From NCBI GenBank assembly GCA_020721815.1, contig DYMA01000007.1:1-32646 (forward strand): a DNA stretch of 32,646 nucleotides. The letters are read 5' to 3'. The notes beneath the pieces are model-generated. The model was not told the DNA's origin. It ran no database searches and saw only the letters and a program-made list of their open reading frames with translations. The translations under genes and the position numbers were made by a program. The DNA is from Sulfurovum sp. GTDB lineage: Bacteria > Campylobacterota > Campylobacteria > Campylobacterales > Sulfurovaceae. Every line of letters starts with the position of its first letter. The first letter of the stretch is position 1. Positions 3,440 to 11,334 of this stretch are shown here, in pieces.

Positions 3440-3525
3440 TACAACCTCCTAATTTTTGTTCTATTTTATCGGAGTTTGCGATAGGTTGGTAGGGCTATTG
3501 TGGTGCTTTGATGAGATTTGACTCT

Positions 3526-4617
3526 CTATAAAGCCTTAAAGAGCTTGTAGTAGCGTTTGGCAATTTCACGCCAGTTGTAGTAGGTGATAATCTTTTTGTA
3601 GTTGCTTTGGGTGTAGTGGTGATAACGCACGGGGTCAGATTCCACCTTTTTGATAAGTTCACTTAGCTCATTGGGGCTACGCCAATAGAGTCCATGCTCC
3701 CCTAAATACTCCCGATTGAAGAGAGTGTCATGAGCCAAAATCATACGCTTAGATGCCATGGCTTGGAGCAGTGCGTGTGCGTCGTTGCCCACACTATCGC
3801 CATGAAAATAGCTTGTAGCGTTGGCTCTTAAGATATCCAAATCCTCTTTTTTCTCCCTATCTTCAATAAAAATGACACTCAAATTGGCAATATTTTTGAG
3901 CTTTTTACAATAGAGACTCTTGTGCAATTTGCCTACAATCACAAGCGGATAGTGACGAGATGAGCGTTGGTAGCCTTGAATCATCGTATCGATAGCGTTG
4001 GTGGGTTTGAGCGGTGCGATGATGAGATGGTAGCTTTTGGGAATAAGGTTGTAGTGTTTAAGCAAAGTGGTGCTTTGATAATTTTGATGTTCAAGATGGC
4101 GATTGATATGCACACCGTACTCAATGACTTTGGTATTTTTGAGTTGGTAGCTTGCGATAAGATAACGCTCCAATGCATAGGAGTTGCACACCACAACATC
4201 ACTCTTTTGAAAAGCCTTAGCGTAGAAGAGTTTCGCAAGGATACGCATAAGCTTGGAATTTTTATCGCTTTGATAGGCAATCCTATCGATAGCGGTAATA
4301 AGTTTTTTATTGGAGGGTATCAAGAAGCTCAAAACTCCTCCCCAAAAACCAAAGGAATAGACAATGTCGCTACGTTTAATCGCTTTTTGGAGTGAGTCAT
4401 AATAAAACATCAAAGGATTTTGCGATTGTGAGTAACGTGAAGGCACAAACTCAATGCCCTCCATCTCCCCAAAAGGCTTATACTCTTTGTCGCACACGAT
4501 GACAATGGGCGTATTGTATTGATGATAGAGCTTTTTTGTCACTTCGTAGAGAAGATTTTGGCGTACATCACGACTCTCTTTGCTTATCTTGCCCATTCCA
4601 ATAAACGCTATTTTCAT
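3526..4617 (-). CDS. GT-B fold glycosyltransferase (GT4-like)
   Basis: This 363-residue cytoplasmic or membrane-associated protein has the layout of a GT4-type retaining glycosyltransferase. The N-terminal half begins MKIAFIGMG and carries the DVVVCNSYALERYL acceptor-side motif. The C-terminal nucleotide-sugar half has HALLQAMASKRMILAHD in the place of the E-x7-E region, with less acidic character than usual. It ends in YNWREIAKRYYKLF, almost the same ending as the next gene upstream, so the two are probably related paralogues working on one glycan. The ATG at 4617 follows a GGGAG site. Donor and acceptor sugars cannot be told from the sequence. Confidence 0.75.
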   Translation of the reverse strand: MKIAFIGMGKISKESRDVRQNLLYEVTKKLYHQYNTPIVIVCDKEYKPFGEMEGIEFVPSRYSQSQNPLMFYYDSLQKAIKRSDIVYSFGFWGGVLSFLIPSNKKLITAIDRIAYQSDKNSKLMRILAKLFYAKAFQKSDVVVCNSYALERYLIASYQLKNTKVIEYGVHINRHLEHQNYQSTTLLKHYNLIPKSYHLIIAPLKPTNAIDTMIQGYQRSSRHYPLVIVGKLHKSLYCKKLKNIANLSVIFIEDREKKEDLDILRANATSYFHGDSVGNDAHALLQAMASKRMILAHDTLFNREYLGEHGLYWRSPNELSELIKKVESDPVRYHHYTQSNYKKIITYYNWREIAKRYYKLFKAL

Positions 4618-4627
4618 TTTTTCTCCC

Positions 4628-5677
4628 TTAAGCTATGAGTTTGAGATACCCCTTGGTTGTCTCTTGCCAATTGTAGTGGTCACGAATCATCTTAAGAGCC
4701 TCTTTGGGCAAATCGGTGGCTAAATATTTGTACTCCCAAAAGTAGTTTAGTACCTCTTTGAGGCTTTGAACGTTACCCTTTTCAAAGAGCAATCCGTTGA
4801 ATTGGTGCGTTATTAGCTCCTCATGAATGGGAATATCCGAAGCAATGACGGGTAGTGCATGGCTCATTGCCTCCAAAATATACTCATTGCGGTAGCTTTG
4901 AACAAAAGGAAAAACAATCGCATCGCACGCTCCCCAAAGCATCATCTTTGTAGCCTCATCATTCCAAAGTGTAATGTGTTGGGCAACGTGAAGCTCTCTT
5001 ACGAGCAACTCAAAGCTGTTTTTGAGACTATCGTTTGCGAATGTGCCAACAATAATAAGGTGAAAGTGACCCAAAAGTGTCTCAAGGAGCAAATCAACTC
5101 CATGGTGCGACTCAATGGTTTCGACACCAAAGAGCAGGTAATGTATTGTTTTATCAAGTTTGAGCTTCATGCGTAACATCTCGCGTGGCTGGGCGTTGGT
5201 TTCCAAAGTGCATCCGTGCTTGATGAAACGTGCTTTGGGGTATTTGGGTAGAAGTTGCGTATGGGCGAAGCGACTGTGCACGACAAAATGGCTAAGCAGA
5301 TGGTTGTATGCCCAGCGATAGAAAAAGTCTCTTTTGGTATGCACAAACGCCGTATCAAACCCAACCCCCGCACACTCCACATCGTACCATTTGGCTATAA
5401 GCAGTGTCAAAAGGGTTTTGATAGTGGGTTTGAGAGGGGTAATGAGGATCTTAACGGCGTTGGCTTTGGCATCTTTGAGGGATTTGATAGCACTGGCAAT
5501 ATGCCCCACAAGCGTAGAGTCTTTGGCAAAAAAGCGTTTGCCTCGCACCTCTAGTGTATCAAAATCGCTGTAGATATGCACTTTGATAGCACTGTTTTGC
5601 CTCCACGCTTCTACGAGATTTAAATCATACGAAGCACAATTATCGACATCCAAAATAGCAATATGAACGGTTTGCAT
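4628..5677 (-). CDS. GT-B fold glycosyltransferase (GT4-like)
   Basis: This 349-residue protein has the C-terminal donor-binding signature of GT4 transferases: FPFVQSYRNEYILEAMSHALPVIASDIPIHEEL, with an E-x-x-x-A-x-x-x-GlyAla-type arrangement before PVIAS. Its end, HYNWQETTKGYLKL, mirrors the neighbour downstream. It lies 10 bases from that neighbour and 13 bases from bioA, so the three minus-strand genes are likely one transcript. The pair may build a surface polysaccharide or glycosylate a lipid. The neighbouring CrtI-like enzyme suggests, but does not show, a glycosylated isoprenoid or polyene product. Confidence 0.75.
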   Translation of the reverse strand: MQTVHIAILDVDNCASYDLNLVEAWRQNSAIKVHIYSDFDTLEVRGKRFFAKDSTLVGHIASAIKSLKDAKANAVKILITPLKPTIKTLLTLLIAKWYDVECAGVGFDTAFVHTKRDFFYRWAYNHLLSHFVVHSRFAHTQLLPKYPKARFIKHGCTLETNAQPREMLRMKLKLDKTIHYLLFGVETIESHHGVDLLLETLLGHFHLIIVGTFANDSLKNSFELLVRELHVAQHITLWNDEATKMMLWGACDAIVFPFVQSYRNEYILEAMSHALPVIASDIPIHEELITHQFNGLLFEKGNVQSLKEVLNYFWEYKYLATDLPKEALKMIRDHYNWQETTKGYLKLIA

Positions 5678-5690
5678 CTAGGGACTCCTT

Positions 5691-6977
5691 TTATAGGTTT
5701 TTGACTATGGCGTAGGTGACATCTATCATCTTCTTAAGCTCTTCAACGCTGAAGCAATAGGGCGGCATAAAGTAAACCACACTGCCCAAAGGTCGGATAT
5801 AGACCCCTTGTGCCAATGCTTTTTGAAATATCTCCAATCCAATGCGTTGGCTAGGAGCATAGCCTTGAAGCTCAATAGCACAAATCATCCCTCTTTGGCG
5901 TACCTCTTTGACATTGGCAAGGCTTTTAAACTTTTGGGTTTGGTTGTGGATATATTGGATTTTGTCTTGGTTGTTTTGGAGTATTGGCTCATTTTCAAAA
6001 ATATCCAATACCGCATTAGCCACACTGCACGCCAAAGCATTACCCGTATAGGAGTGTGAATCCAAAAACGATTTGCCCTCGTTGTAGTCGCAATAAAAAG
6101 CACTGTATATTTCATCTGTCATAAGTACCACCGAAAGGGGCATGTATCCCCCCGTAATCCCTTTGGAGAGGCACAAAAAATCGGGACTAATACCCGCTTG
6201 TTCAATCGCAAACATAGTTCCCGTGCGTCCAAATCCTACGGCTATCTCATCGGCTATCAAAAAGATACCGTACCTATCGCACATCTCTCTTAGTTTGGTG
6301 ATATAGGAGGCGTTGTACATCTTCATGCTTCCTGCACACTGTACCAAAGGCTCGATAATGACACTGCTAATTTGATTTTGATGGGCTTGAAGCAATCTCT
6401 CCATATCCTCCAAAGCCACCTCTTCATCAACCAATGCAGGAGAGAGGGCTTGAAGCGTTTTGATGAGTATATCGTTATAGACATCTTTGTAGAGTCCCGT
6501 ATCGCTTACCGCCAATGCCCCCATCGTCTCTCCGTGGTAGGAGTTTTGAAGCGAAACGAAAAAGGGGCGAGTTTCGCCTTTGTTTTTGAAATAGTGAAAC
6601 GCCATTTTGAGACTAATCTCAACGGCACTTGAACCGTTATCGGCAAAAAAGAGCTTTTGGAGCGGTTTGGGAGTAAGTTCAATGAGTCGCCTAGCCAAAT
6701 CAATCGCAGGTTTGTGGCTAAATCCTGCGAAAATGACGTGTTCAAGCTCTCCCATTTGCTCTTGGAGGCGTTGATTGATATAGGGGTGGCAATGCCCAAA
6801 GAGATTGACCCACCACGAACTAATACTATCAAGATAACGATTGCCATCAAAATCTTCGATATACGAACCCTTGGCACTTTTGATAGGAATAAGAGGCAAC
6901 TTCTCATAATCTTTCATCTGCGAACAAGGGTGAAAAATCATCGCCAAATCTTGTGCCATCAACGCCTCATTGCTCAT
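5691..6977 (-). CDS. bioA: Adenosylmethionine-8-amino-7-oxononanoate aminotransferase (DAPA synthase)
   Basis: BioA transfers an amino group from S-adenosylmethionine to KAPA to make 7,8-diaminopelargonate in biotin synthesis. The 428-residue protein is a full-length class III PLP aminotransferase: S52-SWWVNLFGH near the N-terminus, D243 of IADEIAVGFGRTG, and the PLP lysine K272 in LSKGITGGYMP. SWW in place of a general aminotransferase sequence is typical of BioA. The ATG at 6977 has AAGGAA upstream. The first 25 codons and leader (6903-6995) are duplicated at 9327-9419, and a 132-bp element now sits 18 bases upstream of the start, so expression of bioA is probably altered. Confidence 0.92.
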   Translation of the reverse strand: MSNEALMAQDLAMIFHPCSQMKDYEKLPLIPIKSAKGSYIEDFDGNRYLDSISSWWVNLFGHCHPYINQRLQEQMGELEHVIFAGFSHKPAIDLARRLIELTPKPLQKLFFADNGSSAVEISLKMAFHYFKNKGETRPFFVSLQNSYHGETMGALAVSDTGLYKDVYNDILIKTLQALSPALVDEEVALEDMERLLQAHQNQISSVIIEPLVQCAGSMKMYNASYITKLREMCDRYGIFLIADEIAVGFGRTGTMFAIEQAGISPDFLCLSKGITGGYMPLSVVLMTDEIYSAFYCDYNEGKSFLDSHSYTGNALACSVANAVLDIFENEPILQNNQDKIQYIHNQTQKFKSLANVKEVRQRGMICAIELQGYAPSQRIGLEIFQKALAQGVYIRPLGSVVYFMPPYCFSVEELKKMIDVTYAIVKNL

Positions 6978-6995
6978 TGCATTCCTTTTTTTATT
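6903..6995. repeat. Long target duplication, left copy, part 1
   Basis: Bases 6903-6993 (91 bp) are identical to 9327-9417. The match covers the first 25 codons of bioA, its ribosome-binding site and a T tract. The two following bases belong to the same copy, with one mismatch (6994 T against 9418 A). Together with 7135-7161 this forms a 120-bp block corresponding to 9327-9446, split here by a later insertion. The copies flank the restriction-modification genes in direct orientation. Confidence 0.9.
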
Positions 6996-7127
6996 CTAAT
7001 GTTATGCAAAAATAGGAGCAAAGCCCCTATTTTTGGCAGGGACACTTGTGTCCCTTGCAACCCCCTAAAGCTACCCGCATGGCGGGAGAGCGACAAAGTT
7101 ATACGCACTTTGAGTGCGTAAGATTAG
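6996..7127. mobile_element. 132-bp MITE-like element with terminal inverted repeats and four hairpins
   Basis: The ends are imperfect inverted repeats: CTAATGTTATGC inward from 6996 and CTAATCTTACGC inward from 7127 (10 of 12 match). They are flanked by the 7-bp direct repeat TTTTATT (6989-6995 and 7128-7134). The uninterrupted site is present at 9410-9425, which shows that this block was inserted. Inside are four stems: 7007-7016 with 7026-7035 (10 bp), 7039-7045 with 7048-7054, 7074-7078 with 7082-7086, and 7102-7109 with 7113-7120. It has no coding capacity, so a transposase would have to act in trans. The family is not recognised. With the RM leader downstream it explains the 330-bp gene-free stretch 6978-7307. 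Confidence 0.75.
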
Positions 7128-7134
7128 TTTTATT

Positions 7135-7161
7135 GCTATTGTAACATCTTAATGGTTCAAA
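7135..7161. repeat. Long target duplication, left copy, part 2
   Basis: These 27 bases match 9420-9446 with one mismatch (7144 A against 9429 G). In the right copy this sequence follows the 91-bp block directly, so here it was separated from it by the 132-bp element and its duplicated TTTTATT. Read on the minus strand it contains TACAAT, a candidate -10 box of the ancestral bioA promoter. Confidence 0.85.
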
Positions 7162-7243
7162 GAACGTATTTAGCGGTCGATTATCGTTTCTTGCTTTTGC
7201 AATCTGCTTGGTGGTACATGGGTGCAATAAAGCAACCAAAAAG

Positions 7244-7249
7244 TATAAT
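7244..7249 (+). promoter_or_regulatory. Candidate -10 box of the restriction-modification operon
   Basis: TATAAT lies about 60 bases before the GTG of the first gene, with no clear -35 box. Just downstream, TCCCA (7251-7255) and TGGGA (7264-7268) form a small inverted repeat across the expected transcription start, a position where an operator would act. No separate controller (C) protein gene is present. This is assigned by pattern only. Confidence 0.4.
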
Positions 7250-7307
7250 ATCCCAACAAACAATGGGACATAAATTGACTTTCAAATGCCATTCAAAGGA
7301 TTAAATA

Positions 7308-8330
7308 GTGATAAATAACCATGGAATATTAAAATTATTAAGAGAAATTTTACTACAAAAAGAGGTACTCAAATCAAAGTACACAAATATAGAAGAAATA
7401 ATATCAGCAACTAATATTCTTCTTGATACAAAAGAAAATTTTAATAGTGCCTATTTATTGAATTATTTGTATCAAAATATATCAGCAAAAGAGATTGCGA
7501 AACGCAAAACAACCGCTAGAGATTTGGAAGATTACTTATCAATCTTATTTAATGGTAAAATTACAGATGAAACAAAACGAGAAAATAAAGATATTAAAAT
7601 CGAAAAGATAGAAAATGATTTTATAACCCATTTTACAATCTCAAACAAAAGAGAAAAAGCAGATATTGTATTTAACGATGATTTTGTGATGTCTATCAAA
7701 ACATTAATGCCAAATAATGATGAGATTAATTTAGGTTCATTTGAAAAAACAGCACTTTTCTATGAATTGGATGTTTATGATTTTCTAGGAGAACGAAAAG
7801 GCAAAAGCGGTAAGCTTGGTAGTGAAATAGTTAAAATAGGATTGGGTTCAACTTCTCTTTTGAAAAATTTACTATTACTTTTACAAGAAAAAGGGAAGTA
7901 TGAAGTTTTTAAAAGTAGATTTTTGAAAATGGCAAAAGAAATTTTTGCAGACGATATGTTAATTGCCATTAAAAATGATGTTGTGATGGATTTGTATTTT
8001 ATAAAATCAAATGATTTTTATAGTTTATTTGAAAGAAATATTGACAATATTGATAATTTTATCTCTATTGTAAACAGATGGGAAGGAAACTCAATGAGAG
8101 TGAGTAGAGAAGAATTTTTAAAAATTGGAGTTTTAGTTAGGCTTGATTTTGGTTTTATAAAAGATTCTATTCTTCAATATTTTTCAGAATTTGAAACGAA
8201 AACTACAAACATATTAATTAAATACATTAATGATGTCGATAATAAATTGGTTTATCAACAAGAGATGTGCGATGAAATTGAAAGAATTATTAGCCTAATA
8301 GAAGAAAAAATTAAAAGTACAGTTCAATGA
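7308..8330 (+). CDS. Probable type II restriction endonuclease
   Basis: This 340-residue protein is encoded directly upstream of a cytosine-5 methyltransferase and overlaps it by four bases (ATGA), the classic arrangement of a type II R-M pair. I do not recognise a named endonuclease family. A possible PD-(D/E)xK-type core is D119 in KADIVFNDD with S129-I-K131 in the following strand, but the acidic residue before the lysine would be Ser, so this is tentative. The GTG start at 7308 has AAAGGA seven bases upstream. Base composition is far more AT-rich than the flanking genes, consistent with transfer. The expected role is cleavage of foreign DNA lacking the cognate 5-methylcytosine mark. Confidence 0.7.
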   Translation: MINNHGILKLLREILLQKEVLKSKYTNIEEIISATNILLDTKENFNSAYLLNYLYQNISAKEIAKRKTTARDLEDYLSILFNGKITDETKRENKDIKIEKIENDFITHFTISNKREKADIVFNDDFVMSIKTLMPNNDEINLGSFEKTALFYELDVYDFLGERKGKSGKLGSEIVKIGLGSTSLLKNLLLLLQEKGKYEVFKSRFLKMAKEIFADDMLIAIKNDVVMDLYFIKSNDFYSLFERNIDNIDNFISIVNRWEGNSMRVSREEFLKIGVLVRLDFGFIKDSILQYFSEFETKTTNILIKYINDVDNKLVYQQEMCDEIERIISLIEEKIKSTVQ

Positions 8331-9418
8331 AAGTAATTTCTCTTTTTTCTGGTTGCGGTGGATTGGATTTAGGCTTTAAAAAAGCTGGTTTTGATATTGT
8401 TTGGGCTAATGATTTCGACAAAGAAGCAACACAAAGCTATAAAGCAAATATAGGTGAACATATTGTGCATAAAAGTATTTATGATATAGATACGACGATA
8501 ATACCTGATGCAGATATATTAATTGGCGGATTTCCTTGTCTAGGATTTACAGTAGCAAAAGGAAAAGATAGAAAACTCGATTGCGACTACAATCAATTGT
8601 TTCAAGAGTATGCTAGGGTTTTAAAAGCAAAGCAACCTAAATATTTTGTCGTTGAAAATGTTACTGGCATTAAAAGCGGTAAAGAGTTTAATGACTTTTT
8701 TCATGATGTAATACTTGAAACTTTTAAAAAATCAGGAACAAATGGTGATTATAAAATTAAATACAATGTGTTAATCTCTTCCGATTACGGTGTTCCACAA
8801 AATAGAAAAAGAGTGATTGTATTTGGAACAAGAAGTGATATAGCAAATGAACCAAATTTTCCACATTTTAATCTGATAAATAAATTGACTTTGAAAGATG
8901 CAATATCCGATTTGCCTATCGATTATGATTTAAAAGTATCCAATCATACAGGAACAAGTCATAAAGTTAAAATTAACGGATATGTAGGAAATAGACAATT
9001 GAATTGGGATAAACCCTCTCCTACTATTACAGGCAGAGGAAGCAGAAGCGGTGGAGCAGTTATACATCCCCATCCAAATGGACATAGAAGATTGTCAGTA
9101 AGAGAGTGTGCTAGGATACAATCATTTCCCGATGATTTTATTTTTCATGGTAGTAACGGAGCTTGTTTTGCTCAAATTGGCAATGCTGTTCCGCCTATTA
9201 TGGCATTTTTTATAGCCAATGAATTTAGGATTTTATTTGACAATCAACCTGTTCATTTCAAAGCACAAAATTGGTTATTGCCTTATTCAAAAAAAATTGA
9301 AAAGCAGGGATTGCAAATGTTGCAGACTCATAATCTTTCATCTGCGAACAAGGGTGAAAAATCATCGCCAAATCTTGTGCCATCAACGCCTCATTGCTCA
9401 TTGCATTCCTTTTTTTAA
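8327..9418 (+). CDS. DNA (cytosine-5-)-methyltransferase of a type II R-M system, with a hybrid C-terminus
   Basis: The protein modifies cytosine at the 5 position in the recognition site, protecting host DNA from the partner nuclease. Motif I is SLFSGCGGLDLGF (5-17). Motif IV is GGFPCLGF with nucleophile C71, and the usual Gln after the Cys is Leu. Motif VI is ENV (110-112), motif VIII PQNRKR (157-162), motif IX RRLSVRECARIQSFPDDF (254-271) and motif X IGNAVPP (284-290). The target-recognition region is about 170-250, and its specificity cannot be read by eye. Residues 334-363 are encoded by the duplicated antisense bioA sequence and resemble no methyltransferase tail. The catalytic core is complete, so activity is likely. 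AT-rich like its partner. Confidence 0.93.
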   Translation: MKVISLFSGCGGLDLGFKKAGFDIVWANDFDKEATQSYKANIGEHIVHKSIYDIDTTIIPDADILIGGFPCLGFTVAKGKDRKLDCDYNQLFQEYARVLKAKQPKYFVVENVTGIKSGKEFNDFFHDVILETFKKSGTNGDYKIKYNVLISSDYGVPQNRKRVIVFGTRSDIANEPNFPHFNLINKLTLKDAISDLPIDYDLKVSNHTGTSHKVKINGYVGNRQLNWDKPSPTITGRGSRSGGAVIHPHPNGHRRLSVRECARIQSFPDDFIFHGSNGACFAQIGNAVPPIMAFFIANEFRILFDNQPVHFKAQNWLLPYSKKIEKQGLQMLQTHNLSSANKGEKSSPNLVPSTPHCSLHSFF

Positions 9419-9446
9419 TGCTATTGTAGCATCTTAATGGTTCAAA
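9327..9446. repeat. Long target duplication, right copy (uninterrupted)
   Basis: This 120-bp block matches 6903-6995 joined to 7135-7161, with two mismatches. It holds the first 25 bioA codons on the minus strand, the bioA ribosome-binding site and part of the ancestral upstream region, but the rest of bioA is missing. The methyltransferase reads into it and stops at 9416-9418. It also preserves the empty site for the 132-bp element. Confidence 0.9.
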
Positions 9447-9501: not shown

Positions 9502-11016
9502 TTAGCTTCCTGCTACCAATTGCACCAAAAGCAGTCGTGTGGAGTTGTTGTATTTAACAACGAGTTGCAATCCGTCCACTAGGGCAACCGCTTTGCCTTT
9601 TGCTATCTGTTTTGTGTTGTTAGCGTCGCTGTAGTCATAAAGCTCCTCTATCTTCTCATTGACAAGCAACCATTCGTTGTTGTGATAGATGCAATACCCC
9701 ACTCGGCTACTTTGAGAGACCTCCAAACGCTCATTGGGGATAACATCACGACTGATATGCCACGCAAAGAGCGATTGATCTTTGTAAATCATAATACGGT
9801 GATTATCGGGCATAAATTTGCCATTGCCCCCTCGGTCAGAGTAGAGGTTAATCACAGGGAGTTTCCCACGGTAAGGGGTATCGCAAAAGGGGCATTTGGG
9901 CTTTTGTTTGTTGTCAAAAACATACCATTTGGCGATGCATTGGGGGTTTTCGCACGGCACAACAAGATCTACGGTTTTGATAAGCGCTCTCTCCCAATCA
10001 TCGGCAGTAGGGCGTTTGTGAGGATCATGCAATCCCTCCATAAAGGCTTGTTCAATGAGTTTGGAGAGATAGGGGCCTGTGATGGTGTAGGGAAGTTTGC
10101 GTGTATCGTGCCAAAACTGCTCCTCTTTTTTGGCGTATTGTGCATCAATGCGGTTGGAGTCATCAAAGGGGTGTTCAACAAAGAGAGCCTCTTTGCCCAT
10201 TGCCAACGTCTCATCGACGCTAGGGTCCTCTTCGTCGTGGATTTTTCGACCTCGCAAAGGGTGACGAAGCAAGAGGTATTGATAGATAAGCACCGCTAAG
10301 GCGTGGCGATCGGTGTGGCGACTGGGCAAGACTCTTTGGGGGTGTTCTTTGGGCAAATGCGTCGTAGCCACCACTTCGGGAGCGATAAAATCGGGTGTAC
10401 CCACAACATCGGGTGGGAATTTACCAGGCACGACCAATCCATCGACATCGATAATACAAGCATGACCCGACGAGGGGGAGATTAGGACATTTTTGTAGGA
10501 GAGATCGGAGTGAGCCAATCCCGCTGAGTGCATACGCCGAACACTACGGGCAATCATCAAACAAAGCCTCAAATAGATACGCCAATCGCCCCGTTCACGC
10601 TCATCAAGCCGTCCAAAGCGGTTGGTGGGGGTTGAGAACCATTTCCCCTCTTTTTCGCCCCCTTTGATACCCAAAAAATCTCCATTAATCGAACCATGCT
10701 CAAAAAAGTAGTGCCTATCGTATTTGGGCAAAAGTACCCCGTATCGATTGCCCTCTCTTACAATAGCACTGGGCCAACAAAAGAGCTGCTCCCAATACTC
10801 CCCGTGTCCGCTTTGGAATATCCCCTCATGATAAGAGCCTACAATCATCTCAAGGCGTTCAAGCGAATGGCTATCGAGAGGCTCACGAAAAAACGCCACA
10901 GCGTGTTTGCCATCGGTCGTAAAGTAAACATCTTTCATCGTTCCCGAACCAATGATTTCATCGATATACTCAATGTTCTTGCCATCAAGAGTTTGGACTT
11001 GTTTGGTTGTTGGCAT
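9502..11016 (-). CDS. Ser/Thr protein kinase-like protein with zinc ribbon (TerY/YegI-associated type)
   Basis: This 504-residue soluble protein has a glycine-rich loop (22-31), the catalytic loop HSDLSYKN (169-176), DVDG in the DFG place (190-193) and APE (212-214). A normal VAIK lysine is not obvious: the strand reads AVAFFREP. After the kinase core comes a four-cysteine zinc ribbon (C355, C360, C375, C378) and a beta-rich C-terminal region to 504. This layout resembles kinases that in other bacteria sit with a vWA protein and a PP2C phosphatase; neither is nearby. ATG 11016 is chosen over an in-frame ATG at 11118 because AGGAG lies at 11026-11030. Activity is likely but unproven. Confidence 0.75.
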   Translation of the reverse strand: MPTTKQVQTLDGKNIEYIDEIIGSGTMKDVYFTTDGKHAVAFFREPLDSHSLERLEMIVGSYHEGIFQSGHGEYWEQLFCWPSAIVREGNRYGVLLPKYDRHYFFEHGSINGDFLGIKGGEKEGKWFSTPTNRFGRLDERERGDWRIYLRLCLMIARSVRRMHSAGLAHSDLSYKNVLISPSSGHACIIDVDGLVVPGKFPPDVVGTPDFIAPEVVATTHLPKEHPQRVLPSRHTDRHALAVLIYQYLLLRHPLRGRKIHDEEDPSVDETLAMGKEALFVEHPFDDSNRIDAQYAKKEEQFWHDTRKLPYTITGPYLSKLIEQAFMEGLHDPHKRPTADDWERALIKTVDLVVPCENPQCIAKWYVFDNKQKPKCPFCDTPYRGKLPVINLYSDRGGNGKFMPDNHRIMIYKDQSLFAWHISRDVIPNERLEVSQSSRVGYCIYHNNEWLLVNEKIEELYDYSDANNTKQIAKGKAVALVDGLQLVVKYNNSTRLLLVQLVAGS

Positions 11017-11334
11017 CGCTTTAATCTCCTTTTTTTGATTATCATGCGATTGAGTATATTTTATAAAAACAGCGAACACCGTGTTGTGATTTGTTTGTTT
11101 TATTCTCACTGCATTCAAACTTCATGCAAAAATATGCCATCATTATATGAAAACAATTATACCTAAATCCACTTACGGTTCAAAATGCAAATTGTGATTT
11201 ACACAATCTTTCTCCTTCCCATCAAGACGATAGGAGGGAGCAAAAGCTCTTTTTGTTATTAGGATTTAACTTATCAAAAGTTACTAATAGCTAGAATATA
11301 AACCAAAAAGCATAAAAAGTAAGATAGGAAAAAG
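11017..11334. promoter_or_regulatory. Divergent intergenic region between the kinase and hisF, with two minus-strand TATAAT boxes
   Basis: This 318-bp gene-free stretch separates two divergent genes. On the minus strand TATAAT occurs twice (11142-11147 and 11156-11161), either of which could start a kinase transcript with a leader of about 120 bases. On the plus strand GATAGGAAAAAG precedes the hisF ATG as a weak ribosome-binding site. I see no further gene or strong hairpin in it. Confidence 0.4.

Follow-up and report, generated by a model that had tools for sequence, protein, structure and literature searches.

How did a restriction-modification (R-M) gene pair come to lie between two direct copies of the start of a host gene in the genome of a Sulfurovum species? 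Autonomous movement of R-M systems accompanied by long duplications is a long-standing proposal, which first arose from the comparison of two Helicobacter pylori genomes, and to our knowledge the mechanism of such long target duplication is still open. The window considered here, i.e., the whole stretch of DNA that was analysed, is one contig (32.6 kb) out of the 277 that make up a draft genome; it carries bioA, an R-M pair and, behind this pair, a partial repeat of the start and leader of bioA. Insertion with long target duplication has been described for R-M genes of H. pylori by Nobusato et al. (2000), as cited in PMC1643837 and PMC3874152 (see also PMC3031569). Whichever route led to it, the locus very probably belongs to this class, and the strongest support for the assignment is the recurrence of such repeats in the same R-M family.

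The repeat of bioA DNA and the enclosed R-M pair

The block at 9327-9446 (copy 2, plus strand) equals 6903-6995 joined to 7135-7161 in direct orientation, with 118 of the 120 positions matching. The two mismatches, at 9418 (T to A) and 9429 (A to G), are both derived in copy 2. The copies are free of any mismatch over 91 bp (6903-6993 versus 9327-9417) and reach 94% identity between 7128-7161 and 9413-9446, and within the window's own genome the block is present at these two sites only. Copy 1 (6903-7161, plus strand) is part of intact bioA and contains its codons 1-25, the start region and the leader, which amount to 120 bp without the MITE-like element described below; copy 2 holds a partial bioA start and the leader, also without this element. 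The intact bioA gene (5691-6977, minus strand) encodes adenosylmethionine-8-amino-7-oxononanoate transaminase and matches TIGR00508 well above the cut-off. To the right of copy 2 lies a kinase-like gene (9502-11118, minus strand). The insert between the copies (7162-9326) has a GC content of 29.4%, versus 43% and 47% in the flanks, and the R and M genes are its sole long genes; transposase, integrase or recombinase genes were not seen in it, and no inverted repeat bracketing it was found. The original prediction is confirmed on all of these points, namely, a 120-bp repeat with two mismatches, its derivation from the 5' end and leader of bioA, and an AT-rich R-M unit that lacks a transposase, an integrase, and inverted ends.

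R (7308-8330, plus strand, 340 aa, GTG start) is a probable restriction endonuclease of an unclassified family, an assignment based on its linkage to M, which it adjoins in relatives, and on a conserved REKAD-x(9)-SxK stretch. M (8327-9418, plus strand) encodes a DNA (cytosine-5) methyltransferase (PF00145, E=3.8e-73, residues 1-299), and both genes have a GC content of 25-33%. R homologues, a few of them weak, occur in about 20 Campylobacterota-type genomes, and an M homologue adjoins R at nearly every locus examined (L235 consists of pieces of both at a contig end). R had no credible match in Pfam, NCBIfam, PADLOC, or PDB at the limits used, and no match on plasmids, phages, or viral contigs or in a genome-contig collection; its single-sequence fold (pLDDT 35) was too poor for use. 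Judged from the sequences, the pair would qualify as a type II R-M system by its methyltransferase, with R as the putative cognate endonuclease. M comprises about 333 residues ahead of the junction and then 30 residues from copy 2. Its relatives end about 10-30 residues ahead of the junction, and its stop codon is a TAA created by the substitution at 9418; M appears to have gained about 30 residues from copy 2. In genome G002, a 68-bp M fragment at the end of contig C212 (L244, 1-68) shares 94% identity with window positions 8622-8689 and may be what is left of this methyltransferase gene at a second locus.

An element in one copy and the nearest relative

The original prediction overlooked three features of the locus, namely, the interruption of copy 1 by a MITE-like element, the entry of the M reading frame into copy 2, and the dependence of the repeat edges on the model. 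The 139 bp that are absent from copy 2 consist of a 132-bp MITE-like dispersed element (6996-7127, plus strand), with the imperfect terminal inverted repeats CTAATG...GATTAG, and one 7-bp target repeat (TTTTATT, at 6989-6995 and 7128-7134). With termini and flanks compared, related copies were found at other sites in the same genome and in the genomes G001, G002, and G462. The 139-bp segment was also considered as plain ancestral leader, and this was rejected because the element is dispersed and has a 7-bp target repeat. The element contains several hairpins, the 7-bp target repeats are T-rich, and common sites are occupied across species of the genus.

The closest relative of the window is Sulfurovum sp. 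FS08-3 (G001), in which a MITE-like element occupies the corresponding position and, like that of the window, has the end variants CTAAT and TTAG in place of CTGAT and TCAG. Given that these shared variants are unusual, the elements of FS08-3 and the window most likely represent one insertion; their identity of 92.5% does not by itself separate the FS08-3 copy from other copies. FS08-3 matches window positions 3532-7169 at 96.6%, and has one bioA leader, no R-M pair and no copy 2. The bioA block is closer to FS08-3 than other compared parts of the window are.

The expectation of a single uninterrupted bioA leader in relatives thus holds for FS08-3 with respect to the one copy and the missing R-M pair, but not with respect to its surroundings. 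Past 7169, FS08-3 runs into a cyclic-nucleotide-domain-like gene, the relative of which sits elsewhere in the window's genome. The FS08-3 counterpart of the kinase-like gene (95% identity) is at an unlinked place, on a different contig from the bioA leader, and bioA leader and kinase flank adjoin each other in none of the relatives searched. The bioA neighbourhood is rearranged in every species compared, and therefore a locus with one 120-bp copy and both flanks of the window cannot be demonstrated; from hisF rightwards, the window is syntenic with FS08-3 and G002. An exchange of the bioA and kinase neighbourhoods by reciprocal inversion was considered and rejected, as the displaced neighbours are not joined in the window's genome. 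Compared with FS08-3, gene order in the window (3532-7169 and 9513-11021) breaks down at single genes or small groups of genes despite 93-97% identity.

The homology to FS08-3 extends past the repeat. FS08-3 resembles the 8 bases past the end of copy 1 (7162-7169, plus strand; 7/8 positions), not those past the end of copy 2, and random 8-mers reach 7/8 at a frequency of 0.00075. The stretch would be either ancestral leader or a remnant common by descent. Because of this match past 7161, the exact edges of the repeat depend on the model, and the description of the boundaries as readable to the base was too strong. The 8-bp match and the shared element together indicate that the FS08-3-like continuation belongs to copy 1, whereas plain target duplication predicts it for copy 2. 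Since, in addition, the element common to copy 1 and FS08-3 is absent from copy 2, the duplication need not date from the insertion; in the claim that bioA DNA was duplicated upon entry of the R-M pair, it is the host-gene origin that stands.

Recurrence and comparison with known systems

Three further loci of the R-M family contain direct repeats of the end of a neighbouring gene, with lengths of 62, 42, and 49 bp, and for two of the three (L053 and L059) unoccupied sites are present in relatives. At L053 (G247), the R-M pair is located between trmB and ftsE and is bracketed by a 62-bp repeat of the trmB 3' end (62/62 identical), and trmB directly adjoins ftsE in four members of the same genus (G276, G530, G527, and G327). 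At L059 (G028), the pair follows an rluB-like gene, the last 42 bases of which recur behind M (38/42, 90%), M ends with the host rluB residues DLRDFLKQNGVRY, and R is interrupted by a stop. The unoccupied site in G232 is identical to the right copy of L059 over all 42 bases and is followed by the same downstream gene; both L059 copies are near the 92-93% background identity to G232, which gives no confident assignment of donor and resident. At L251 (G584), a repeat of the 5' end of an N6-methyltransferase gene (43/49, 88%) brackets the R-M pair together with a PIN-domain toxin-like gene (3478-3861). A rule by which the remnant is always behind M was dropped, since L251 has it ahead of R.

As a control, direct repeats of at least 35 bp with at least 85% identity and a spacing of 1.5-3.5 kb were counted in 603 kb of Campylobacterota-type sequence, a set that does not include L251. 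There are four such repeats, the window's included, and three of the four bracket an R-M pair of this family; the window repeat is far beyond chance. No comparable repeat brackets the R-M genes at L049-L052, L054-L058, L060, L234, or L235, and with about a dozen loci lacking one, the long repeat is a frequent but not a constant feature of the family. Within this genus, the position behind the rluB-like gene (L201-L213) varies in content by species, e.g., this R-M family, a HARE-HTH domain gene, and others, and may be a hotspot for such genes.

The window is a new example of a known event, and the link to the H. pylori class that had been drawn from the sequence is supported by the repeat, the compact unit, and the three sister loci when set against the accounts in PMC1643837 and PMC3874152. 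As in H. pylori, the R-M genes are without mobile-element genes, the direct duplications are long and variable, in the order of 100 bp, and the phylum is the same, judging by the relatives found. Unlike the H. pylori cases, as far as later papers present them, the window duplicates the start of bioA, one copy has a MITE-like element, and M reads into the duplicate. R-M systems also move by linkage to insertion sequences (IS) or as composite transposons (PMC3031569), in which the unit is likewise between direct repeats; the repeats of the window, however, are host-gene DNA and not insertion sequences, and the unit is without a transposase. Hallmarks of transposons (a fixed short target repeat, terminal inverted repeats, flanking IS) were not seen in the R-M family, and a transposase is argued against because the duplications range in length from 42 to 120 bp, no sequence is common to the insert ends, and there is no recombinase gene. 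A third known type is DNA duplication associated with inversion (Furuta et al. 2011, cited in PMC3874152), which in the account given there is tied to chromosomal inversion. It resembles the window in the long duplication at a rearranged, R-M-linked locus and differs in that the window copies are direct. L061, where a decayed R-M pair of the family is located between 136-bp inverted repeats (3845-3980 and 6208-6343, 98% identity), may fit this type better.

Routes to the duplication

The preferred origin is one-sided homologous recombination combined with an illegitimate junction behind M, to which a probability of just under 0.6 is given. Incoming DNA containing bioA-region sequence and the R-M pair would have paired at one end with the bioA region of the recipient, while its other end would have been joined illegitimately just behind M, and the resident leader would have been left over as copy 2. 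The element-bearing copy at intact bioA and the element-free remnant would then derive from two slightly different alleles. We infer this route, and the order of events that it implies, because the window copies appear to be different alleles; it is the MITE-like element and the 8-bp match that favour two alleles. Against one-sided recombination stands that the relatives searched do not show the pre-insertion site, that the L053 copies have no difference between them, the outcome expected of a one-step duplication, and that the window is explained equally well if copy 2 lost the element or if the duplication predates the split of G000 and FS08-3.

A one-step insertion with true target duplication is unlikely by comparison. 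In such an event, the bioA leader would have been cut at staggered positions about 120 nt apart and filled in after insertion of the R-M pair, and the element would have been gained later in copy 1 from an FS08-3-like strain or lost from copy 2. The arrangement agrees with this, since here, as in L053 and L059, the left copy is continuous with the intact gene and the right copy still has its own surroundings on the outer side, and so does the sequence, with 91 identical bp in the window and 62/62 in L053; variable long duplications of this kind are also described in the literature, to the extent that the later papers report it. An unoccupied allele of leader and kinase flank with the MITE-like element, then TGTACAATACC, would favour this scheme over that of two alleles. 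One-step insertion would, however, require an extra event, as the same insertion of the element, with the CTAAT/TTAG variants, is present in FS08-3, it would leave the 7/8 match of FS08-3 past copy 1, and not copy 2, to chance, and it has to contend with L059 and L251 copies that differ by 10-12%. The simple staggered-cut form fits poorly, since FS08-3 has the element at the same place and the homology continues for 8 bp past the repeat.

More unlikely still is an old event, in which the R-M pair and the duplication predate both the FS08-3 split and the insertion of the MITE-like element, and FS08-3 later lost the R-M pair and copy 2 by rearrangement, with 8 bp of the unit left. This would account at once for the 8-bp match and for an element that copy 1 shares with FS08-3 but that copy 2 lacks, and it is compatible with the derived state of copy 2 at both differences, with the rearrangement seen in every species compared, and with the M fragment at another locus in G002. 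The copies, however, differ at only 2/120 positions, no more than copy 1 differs from FS08-3, and no R-M remnant was found in FS08-3. An assembly chimera, in which the contig wrongly joins two leader alleles or two strains, might be suspected from the 277 contigs of the draft, the heavy rearrangement relative to relatives, and the repeat elements present, but is very improbable, because an indel and two substitutions distinguish the copies, neither of which is thus a plain echo of the other, no shared sequence lies at the junctions 7161 and 9326, and other assemblies, made independently, show the same architecture around members of this gene family.

An R-M family with long repeats at four independent loci, for some of which unoccupied sites exist, offers a way to examine whether such repeats arise by duplication at insertion or by recombination between alleles, and the MITE-like element at one of these loci helps to order the events. 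Tentatively, the R gene and its C5-methyltransferase partner could form a minimal mobile unit in its own right, whose repeated insertion at the start or end of a gene, in several families of the phylum, would require no transposase, would restore the intact gene and would leave a remnant of 40-120 bp at the other end, which is sometimes fused in frame to M. At the window locus, the start of bioA would have been kept, and the MITE-like element would now separate a promoter-like region from the start codon. A promoter-like match in copy 2 faces M (9452-9423, minus strand), such matches being no commoner there than in shuffles. Recombination between the direct copies would delete or amplify the R-M unit, and its precise loss or tandem amplification is therefore predicted.
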